41,146 nt of DNA from Flavonifractor plautii ATCC 29863 (GTDB lineage: Bacteria; Bacillota; Clostridia; Oscillospirales; Oscillospiraceae), in contig NZ_JH417652.1 of NCBI RefSeq assembly GCF_000239295.1, positions 1-41,146 of the forward strand. Direction: 5' to 3'. How positions within the stretch are numbered: position 1 is the stretch's first letter; each line of letters starts with the position of its first letter. Positions 20,841 through 21,807 of the stretch are shown here, piece after piece. The position numbers were made by a program, and so were the translations under genes. The notes beneath the pieces were generated by a model, which saw only the letters and a program-made list of their open reading frames with translations, did not search any database and was not told the DNA's origin.

Positions 20841-20926
20841 AAGGTATGTTCTCCTTTATTCTCTATCTCTCATAACAGATGCATCCTTGAACGCGAATTG
20901 GCTGCTGCGCCGCGCCCTCCTTTCTG

Positions 20927-20950
20927 TTTGAAAACGTGTACCTTTTAAAA
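20927..20950 (+). repeat. recombinase-type site I
   Basis: A 24-bp imperfect palindrome starting TTTGAAAAC and ending CCTTTTAAAA, centre between 20938 and 20939 with asymmetric core GT. The half-site resembles the Hin/hix half-site TTGAAAACC. Same orientation as site II. Confidence 0.55.
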
Positions 20951-20958
20951 TTAAAAAA

Positions 20959-20964
20959 ATTGTA
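20959..20964 (-). promoter_or_regulatory. possible extended -10 toward the chemoreceptor
   Basis: On the minus strand TGCTACAAT gives a TGN extended -10 (TACAAT at 20959-20964); the -35 at 17 bases is poor. It lies between sites I and II, so recombination across it would turn it away from the receptor gene. Confidence 0.35.
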
Positions 20965-21040
20965 GCAAAGGCTTAATTTGAACCCAGATTGCTCCGATTA
21001 AAGATTGGAGAACAGAGAATCTCAAAACCAGCTTTAATTG

Positions 21041-21064
21041 TTTGAAAAAGTGTGCTTTTTCAGC
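21041..21064 (+). repeat. recombinase-type site II
   Basis: A second copy with the same TTTGAAAA start and GT core, centre between 21052 and 21053. It contains a perfect 8-bp inverted repeat TGAAAAAG/CTTTTTCA around TGTG. Its centre is exactly 114 bp from that of site I. Confidence 0.55.
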
Positions 21065-21154
21065 TTCATTTTATGATTTAAATAACTTGTTGCTGCTAAT
21101 TGATTTCTTGTAAAACACGCAGCATATTCAGAAATATGGGGACAGAGTTAAATT

Positions 21155-21178
21155 TTTAAAAAAGTACAGGTTTTCAAA
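21155..21178 (-). repeat. recombinase-type site III (inverted)
   Basis: The third copy, in opposite orientation: on the minus strand TTTGAAAACC, core GT, then ACTTTTTTAAA. Its centre, between 21166 and 21167, is again exactly 114 bp from site II. Seventeen of 24 positions are identical in all three sites. Confidence 0.55.
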
Positions 21179-21201
21179 TTTTCGGAAATACCTCCATTTG
21201 T

Positions 21202-21807
21202 TTAGTCCGGTGTTTCCAGTTTTATTGCCTTGGAATAGAAGGTCCCTGTGGGCATTCCGCAGGCCCTGGCCGCCTGTCGGAGTGTTATTTTTTGGCCCCG
21301 CCAGGCCTGATGGAGCATGTGGAAATTGTCTGGGAGGGGAAGGGGAGGGCGGCCAAAGCGTACGCCCCGGGCCTTGGCTGCCGCGATACCCTCCGCCTGC
21401 CGCTGGCGGATGTTGTCGCGCTCGTTTTCCGCCACGAAGGAGAGCACCTGGAGCACAATGTCGCTGAGAAAGGTGCCCATCAAATCCTTGCCTCGCCGGG
21501 TGTCCAGAAGGGGCATGTCCAGTACGGCGATGTCCACGCCCTTTTCCTTGGTGAGCATCCGCCACTGTTCCAGAATCTCGCTGTAGTTGCGCCCCAGTCG
21601 GTCGATGCTTTTGACATACAGAAGATCATCCCGCCGCAGGCGGCGCACCAGCCGTCGGTACTGGGGGCGCTCAAAGTCCTTGCCGGACTGCTTGTCCATA
21701 TAGATGTTCTCCTCCGGCACCGGCAGGGCAGCCAGAGCCAGCCGCTGCCGGTCTTCGTTCTGTTCCCGGGTACTGACTCGGATATAGCCGTAGATTGTTC
21801 CAGCCAC
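21202..21807 (-). CDS. small serine recombinase (resolvase/invertase family)
   Basis: A 201-residue serine recombinase of resolvase/Hin size. The catalytic domain starts [17 protein letters not shown] with the nucleophile Ser12. It carries [14 protein letters not shown] with the conserved arginines and the long E helix ([25 protein letters not shown]). A GRPP-type hinge leads to a C-terminal helix-turn-helix ([20 protein letters not shown]). It starts with GTG behind AAAGGAGG. No transposase or terminal repeats are nearby, so it is not obviously part of a transposon. Three candidate crossover sites lie directly downstream, before the chemoreceptor gene; an invertase role is inference. Confidence 0.92.

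Follow-up and report, generated by a model that had tools for sequence, protein, structure and literature searches.

The invertases Hin and Gin act on a pair of inverted dyads, each about 26 bp long with a core of 2 bp, and the gene for the Hin recombinase lies inside the Hin invertible segment. In Bacteroides fragilis, one serine recombinase, Mpi, flips many promoters of surface molecules. The resolution sites of Tn3 and Sin are composed of one crossover site and accessory sites in a fixed array. In Salmonella, promoter inversion by a serine recombinase at two inverted 26-bp hix sites is described in the available portion of PMC3798978. For F. plautii, the accessible text of PMC13418256 (2026) describes hin and an inversion of ~120 bp with a FliA-dependent promoter before csrA-tldR, as well as loci with the order hin, ~120-bp inverton, csrA, tldR and fliC in Flavonifractor plautii and Oscillibacter. 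Inversion signatures were also reported for Clostridia, next to a methyl-accepting chemotaxis protein of Anaerotignum propionicum and, in Clostridium thermocellum, close to chemotaxis genes (PMC5903667); section 13 of that paper names no recombinase, site family or site number. In addition, a clostridial inverton group, 139, was linked to tyrosine recombinases in PMC11892184, whose main text, as available, does not contain the word serine. Our literature searches found no paper on an invertible promoter combined with a methyl-accepting chemotaxis protein, an invertase and phase variation, and for invertible promoters and S-layer homology the phrase was absent among the matches listed. Among the matches listed, including the literature on inversion and invertases of Flavonifractor plautii, no paper was found on the arrangement presented below, most subscription journals lying outside the search.

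The window analyzed in this study, i.e., the whole stretch of 41,146 bp (G000:C36:1-41146), belongs to a draft genome of 3.82 Mb in 242 contigs (G000). On the minus strand, a gene for a small serine recombinase (P0001; 21202..21807; 201 aa, GTG start; Pfam Resolvase PF00239, E 7.1e-31) and its stop codon are followed by site III, segment A, site II, segment X, site I and a chemoreceptor gene (18741..20840, minus strand). The latter is the presumed target and encodes 699 aa with dCache_1, HAMP and MCPsignal domains. Site III (21155..21178, minus strand) lies 23 bp past the recombinase stop codon, and together with site II (21041..21064, plus strand) it is read as the canonical pair. Site I (20927..20950, plus strand) is read as the extra, third site, direct to II and inverted to III. 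Segment A (21065..21154; 90 bp between III and II), whose place and length class are matched in relatives, would be the canonical invertible segment, and segment X (20951..21040) fills the 90 bp between II and I. Upstream of the recombinase gene, a strong hairpin of 18 pairs followed by T residues was observed on the minus strand (21904-21942), which is likely the terminator of the gene preceding the recombinase.

A first-pass annotation of this DNA had described three 24-bp palindromes between a serine recombinase and a chemoreceptor, identical at 17 of 24 positions, with a GT core, steps of 114 bp, sites I and II direct and site III inverted. The gene order is as claimed and recomputation agreed on every point. 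The identity of 17/24 was obtained with III inverted and fell to 14/24 with III read direct; both start-to-start spacings were 114 bp, and each 24-bp site had GT as its central dinucleotide. The best matched pair was I and III (21/24), I-II and II-III each being identical at 18/24. The dyads were imperfect, with 18, 16 and 16 of 24 positions self-complementary in the sites of the window. When the 41,146-bp window was searched with a site model derived from relatives only, three matches of at least 8 bits were found, which were exactly sites I, II and III (26.8, 22.5, and 23.5 bits, respectively), and 500 mononucleotide shuffles of the 361-bp gap yielded no match of at least 15 bits. Given exactly three model matches and none in the shuffles, the three sites are not the product of chance, and they were confirmed as real.

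Duplication of a segment as the source of the third site was considered and rejected: segment A was outside the six best matches of segment X, and X was outside the six best of A. Segment X weakly resembled the sigma-28-type segments of the tldR-type cassettes described below, aligning locally with L061 at a score of 43 where shuffles gave a 95% bound of 39; this bound is lenient, the shuffles having been aligned in a single orientation. No Rfam match to segment X was found at E up to 1 (positions 18000-24000 searched), and a 26-base word of it had no exact match in viral contigs. Helical phasing of the site spacings was also set aside; the spacings clustered near 115, 126-128, and 134-142 bp, and the scan resolved no period (best value 11.6, P 0.019).

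Relatives were the best 80 of 574 recombinase relatives in named genomes (L045-L124; 73-84% identity), which carry clostridial labels, the exceptions being one MAG with an Akkermansia label and some bins without assignment. The first site model was seeded with sites of the own genome. The second, relatives-only model was built from relatives' sites chosen by the first model and then counted on those 80 loci again; it counts sites and leaves orientation aside. Distances downstream of the recombinase start where its tblastn match ends rather than at the stop codon. With the relatives-only model, two sites followed the recombinase in 59 of these 80 loci and three sites in none. One site was found in four loci, three of which had 164 bp or less of downstream sequence, and no site in 17, of which 3 had <50 bp and 13 had >1 kb of downstream sequence. 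Thus, either the pairing is not universal or the sites of these 17 differ. The first model provided 55 measured pairs, and in all of them the sites were inverted to each other and both cores were GT. The pairs faced the same way in 54 loci and the opposite way in L072, whose two sites were swapped in the scripts for this reason. The spacing was 105-149 bp in 54 pairs, with peaks at 115 and 137 bp, and 187 bp in one. Among 27 further recombinase loci inspected by eye (L204-L230, some overlapping with the 80), a pair was found in 17 and a single site in 2, the other 8 having no site. A third match overlapped the first site of the pair in L222 and was ~1 kb away in L229; three evenly spaced sites were found in none of the 27.

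Comparison with these relatives places the window sites in a widespread clostridial cassette, in which a serine recombinase of ~200 aa is directly followed by two inverted 24-bp sites with GT cores. Similar to the two inverted sites ~115-137 bp apart that enclose a promoter in this cassette, III and II are 114 bp apart and enclose a putative promoter, which is weak. The cassette may be a portable phase-variation module. The genes downstream of it in the best 80 of 574 were very mixed, including secreted-surface-like, TnpB-like, and DNA methyltransferase- or helicase-like ones; these labels were read by eye, except for TnpB, which was searched for. Shifted motif copies were seen in some relatives. 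In L075, a second copy overlaps the second site to form a nested palindrome and L054 is similar, and in L058 a shifted copy is near the first site.

Among 1,485 pairwise comparisons of the segments of these relatives (best 80 of 574), 26 showed >0.70 identity in one orientation, of which six were inverted, four of them with well conserved flanks. For instance, the segment of L060 was 0.88 and 0.85 identical to those of L093 and L102 when inverted and 0.62 and 0.60 when direct, with flank identities of 0.83-0.98, and the three loci have the downstream gene in common. The segments of L054 and L058, both from the genus of the window, were 0.79 identical inverted and 0.52 direct (flanks 0.89 and 0.89), and those of L058 and L075 were 0.84 inverted and 0.53 direct (flanks 0.86 and 0.81). 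The inverted pairs L046-L064 and L047-L075 had weaker flanks (0.58-0.71). Alignment of the gap in related genomes, which had been proposed as a check on inversion, thus yielded inverted segments with conserved flanks between relatives. By these alignments, the canonical segment is present in both orientations among related species; the comparison set comprises one genome per species, and the evidence on orientation is between species. The claim of inversion itself is supported for the relatives, whose segments occur in both orientations and carry a promoter, and at the window locus inversion is predicted from sequence.

P0001 matched positions 1-144 of the 145 of PF00239. Its nearest solved chain was Sin (2r0q, E 1e-28), and gamma-delta resolvase was also among its nearest solved relatives. 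Against the NCBIfam model of the Mpi family (NF009949) it scored 51.8 bits, the cut-off being 272, and no plasmid match to it was found at E 1e-60. Its features are those of a small serine recombinase of the resolvase/invertase family with a short predicted C-terminal helix-turn-helix, which was assigned by reading an alignment of the C-terminal tail across 57 proteins. The reading frame was intact. In 57 recombinases, i.e., 55 relatives (from the best 80 of 574), the window enzyme and that of contig C194 in the same genome, the distance between C-terminal domains correlated with the distance between half-sites (r 0.72) and that between catalytic domains did so far less (r 0.18). The partial correlations were 0.71 and -0.11, respectively, and none of 2000 permutations reached the observed values. 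Among 45 non-redundant relatives (best 80 of 574), all 18 with a GTFY or DTFY helix had a first site whose first half reads TTTR, compared with 0 of 27 with other helices. Second half-sites were looser; two of the 18 had TCTG and TTGG there. Other pairings included STFYYK with TCTAAA, STFRDK with TACGG, and STFRYR mostly with TACA or TGCA.

The window enzyme has a GTFY helix and its sites are of the TTTG type. Three intact small recombinases were seen in its genome, on C36, C115, and C194, and the GTFY helix was found only in that of C36; the comparison covered intact enzymes, and shorter fragments in part. The C194 enzyme has a TFRYR helix and TACAG-type sites, and that of C115 lacks the GTFY helix and has no sites nearby. 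The proposal that the adjacent recombinase uses the three sites is backed by this comparison, through both the helix-half-site pairing and the site family in relatives. Its description as Hin-type held in part: the layout is Hin-like, but the nearest solved sequence is Sin and no Fis was found over the cut-off in the genome (model NF001659, best 25.6 bits, cut-off 99, which 1 of 14 control genomes exceeded). This readable rule of helix and half-site links short promoter switches of gut Clostridia to their enzyme, and invertases and their targets can therefore be matched from sequence.

The C194 cassette (L136, 514-4588) encodes a recombinase 73% identical to that of the window. It was grouped with 13 relatives from the best 80 of 574 (L046, L047, L049, L051, L054, L057, L058, L061, L064, L075, L078, L090, and L121). 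A sigma-28-type promoter was located 39-42 bp before the exit site in 14/14 by place, the match in L049 being no better than shuffles (p 0.57). A TnpB-like gene was present in all 14 and, at E 1e-8, in no other of the 80 loci. Flagellin was found in C194 and 11 of the 13 relatives, the stretches of L047 and L121 ending ~2.3 and 1.5 kb past the recombinase, and a CsrA domain was found in L058. Where TnpB has its first RuvC aspartate (GIDLG), all 14 proteins read GL[KQNH][YFH]S, which suggests that they are nuclease-dead TldR. In these features, the C194 cassette and its 13 relatives agree with the published csrA-tldR-hin loci (PMC13418256).

The sigma-A weights and the sigma-28 score were our own, derived from consensus sequences. 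In the 42 relatives outside the sigma-28-type group (from the best 80 of 574), the best sigma-A-like promoter ended 36-40 bp before the center of the exit site in 34, compared with 40 of 840 shuffled segments. Of these 34 promoters, 29 were in the OFF orientation, with the downstream gene behind them, and 5 faced that gene (ON). Thus, their orientation is strongly skewed in relatives. The putative sigma-A-like promoter of segment A (21100..21128, plus strand; TTGATT-17-CATATT) points away from the chemoreceptor, and its -10 ends 38 bp before the center of site III, which is the fixed place of the family. Its -10 of CATATT is weak, its score is unremarkable (p ~0.23 against shuffles), and it is absent from the list of the strict scan. 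No sigma-A promoter was found in segment X at that fixed place. Segment X carries a weak sigma-28-like match (20974..21000, plus strand; TAAT-15-TCCGATTA; p 0.045, uncorrected, with 64 segments scanned), which also points away from the chemoreceptor and lies 52 bp from the center of the exit site, compared with 39-42 bp in the tldR-type cassettes.

The first-pass annotation had proposed that a possible promoter between I and II faces the receptor. That proposal found no support, the best sigma-A-like score there being p ~0.22 against shuffles. An extended -10, TGCTACAAT, is present near site I. The strict scan listed no sigma-70-type match in the gap, and it omits the promoter of segment A too. 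The family pattern instead places a weak candidate promoter of the window between II and III, directed away from the receptor. Because both this promoter and the match in segment X point away from the receptor, the assembled state reads as OFF.

Matching sites were also found elsewhere in the genome. The search pattern was drawn from the window sites and the site of contig C214, four of the matched places being those from which it was taken; it gave 24 matches at 17 places, and the reversed pattern gave none. Inverted pairs 115 bp apart with GT cores precede genes for leucine-rich repeat and SLH proteins on C227 and C23 and a gene for a beta helix protein on C102. On C26, a pair facing the opposite way (140 bp, core GA) precedes a gene for a protein with a repeat domain and SLH, and on C214 an inverted pair (147 bp, core CT), whose second site was found by eye, precedes a gene without a Pfam match. 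The least sure target is a 507-aa protein without a Pfam match on C71, behind a pair of 93 bp with core GT that also faces the opposite way. A single CT-core site at a contig end (C100:95), before a gene for a repeat-domain and SLH protein, is a probable target. SLH was thus found in four of the seven proteins behind these trans sites, and the proteins are large and apparently secreted, the secretion signals being read by eye. The cores agreed within each pair and differed between loci, with GT at C36, C227, C23, C102, and C71, CT at C214, and GA at C26. The best promoter pointed away from the gene at C227, C102, C23, C214, C26, and C71 (from 0/300 shuffles to p 0.073) and toward the gene at C100 (p 0.007).

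Three further places were rejected as switches. The perfect outer dyad at C41:5984 overlaps an ORF end, C157:52 lies where a reading frame starts, and C161:108 is a single site at a contig end. An additional search (R1), in which 150 of 1392 candidates were scored, returned its 15 input sites, C41 at E 0.012 and weaker matches. On C23 (L126), a partial extra copy of the motif was seen by eye; it closely follows the second site and precedes the gene for the 1153-aa protein (gene start 4021). The contigs C100 (1-118) and C161 (1-131) break near single CT-core sites and have GTCCAATATG in common at their ends; they may represent a single locus that the assembler, or a repeat, has broken in two.

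In 19 other genomes of the genus, the matches were the cis sites of G004 and G008 plus single places with 2-3 mismatches in G002, G004, G010, G013, and G014 (two in the last). In 20 genomes chosen from the 80 loci, 16 of which had TTTG-type sites, most matches were the cis pair, with one or a few further places in G412, G414, G415, G421, G422, G423, G424, and G428; the match in G414 is perfect, and the additional sites of G428 include a pair. The reversed pattern gave 4 matches in 3 of these 20 genomes. As the other genomes searched show little or no dispersal, the proposed network is best developed in the genome of the window among those sampled.

Six homologs of the receptor with 55-63% identity were found in other genera of the family (400 genomes, E up to 1e-130), and the stretches examined around them contained no site of at least 12 bits. 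Control of the receptor is therefore not conserved, and the receptor probably came under the switch in the lineage of the window.

We consider it likely that the recombinase binds the three GT-core dyads and inverts DNA between the inverted pairs, and that it probably also acts in trans. In this mechanism, the product of 21202-21807 would bind all three dyads and invert III-II (114 bp) and III-I (228 bp). The assembly would represent OFF, with the segment A promoter pointing back at the recombinase. Inversion between III and II would make this promoter face the chemoreceptor through segment X, and inversion between III and I would bring it beside the receptor and turn the sigma-28-like match of segment X toward the receptor as well. 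Between I and II, which are direct repeats, the only possible outcome would be a 114-bp deletion. Inversions alone would yield four arrangements; two of these would be ON, each with its own leader, and the geometry would thus allow more than two states. The enzyme would probably also act in trans on the matching site pairs before large secreted proteins. We infer activity at the window, use of site I, promoter function and action in trans. The roles of site I and segment X are among the weakest points; they rest on geometry and weak matches. Counting against the mechanism as a whole are the low score of site II, the likeness of X to other segments, which is barely above its lenient bound, the unremarkable promoter scores of the window, the relatives and receptor homologs that lack sites, the excess of OFF promoters in relatives, and the reversed facing of the pairs in C71, C26, and L072.

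A plain two-site switch, in which III-II or III-I alone turns the receptor ON and OFF, leaving the other site as a relic or a spare for binding, is quite possible, if somewhat short of probable. The 59 two-site relatives (best 80 of 574) have just two sites, III-I is the best matched pair of the window at 21/24, and site II is its weakest site, as the second site is in several relatives, e.g., L054 and L058. A relic would be expected to lose its core or half-sites, however, whereas each of the three scores well under the relatives-only model and has GT as its core. The right half of II is imperfect and the -10 of CATATT is weak, features that would also suit a formerly invertible cassette now locked OFF by decay of site II and of the promoter. 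We regard such a degenerate cassette as unlikely, since the recombinase has an intact reading frame and other parts of the genome contain well-matched sites of this type.

Two readings without inversion appear less probable still. A resolvase-like complex, with one crossover site and the others accessory, would resolve or delete rather than invert; it finds some basis in the relationship to Sin and gamma-delta resolvase among the nearest solved sequences and in the direct repeats I and II, which permit deletion. It is nevertheless very unlikely, given the two inverted sites of the relatives (best 80 of 574), the occurrence of both orientations between species, and three window sites that are all full-length dyads with the same core. 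Dyads in promoter regions are commonly operators, and the recombinase or a repressor might control the receptor by binding alone. Against this, segments are inverted between relatives with conserved flanks, and the cores match within pairs of the genome yet differ between loci, for which recombination provides an explanation and mere binding does not; we think regulation by binding hardly probable. Inversion between the inverted pairs of the three sites is preferred here. A broader and more tentative view, which we hold to be possible rather than probable, is that one invertase serves as a genome-wide master switch grown from a cis switch. It would combine a nested three-site chemoreceptor switch, with sigma-A-like and sigma-28-like promoters, with promoters of at least six secreted, partly S-layer-anchored proteins. 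Sensing and coat would then co-vary, and the cores GT, CT, and GA would keep some loci apart. The genome may contain a multi-gene phase-variation network of surface proteins and a chemoreceptor.

Similar to Hin/hix as described in the available portion of PMC3798978, the window combines a serine recombinase, two inverted sites and a proposed promoter inversion. Its sites are, by sequence, 24-bp dyads with a central GT. Different from Hin, its segment is ~115 bp rather than ~1 kb and the recombinase gene is outside it. Moreover, Hin and Gin rely on a Fis-bound enhancer, whereas the genome of the window has no Fis over the cut-off in a search at the protein level. In contrast to the array of Tn3 and Sin, the window sites are all full-length dyads with the same core, and relatives (best 80 of 574) have two inverted sites and never three. 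As with Mpi, one serine recombinase is proposed to invert promoters before surface molecules; unlike Mpi, the host is clostridial, the surface targets are others and the enzyme has a cis switch of its own. From C194, the window differs in its half-site, TTTGAAAA versus TACAG. The closest match is the cassette of PMC13418256, which, judging from its accessible text, very probably has the same recombinase family and layout. In those hin loci csrA-tldR-flagellin is downstream, whereas the window has a chemoreceptor, a third site, and matching sites dispersed before secreted proteins. Thus, this kind of cassette is already known, and the presumed chemoreceptor target, the third site and the dispersed putative secreted-protein targets are new. 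With the switches tied to their enzymes by the helix-half-site rule, the published hin-inverton of csrA-tldR loci would represent one instance of a module that stands in front of widely different genes.
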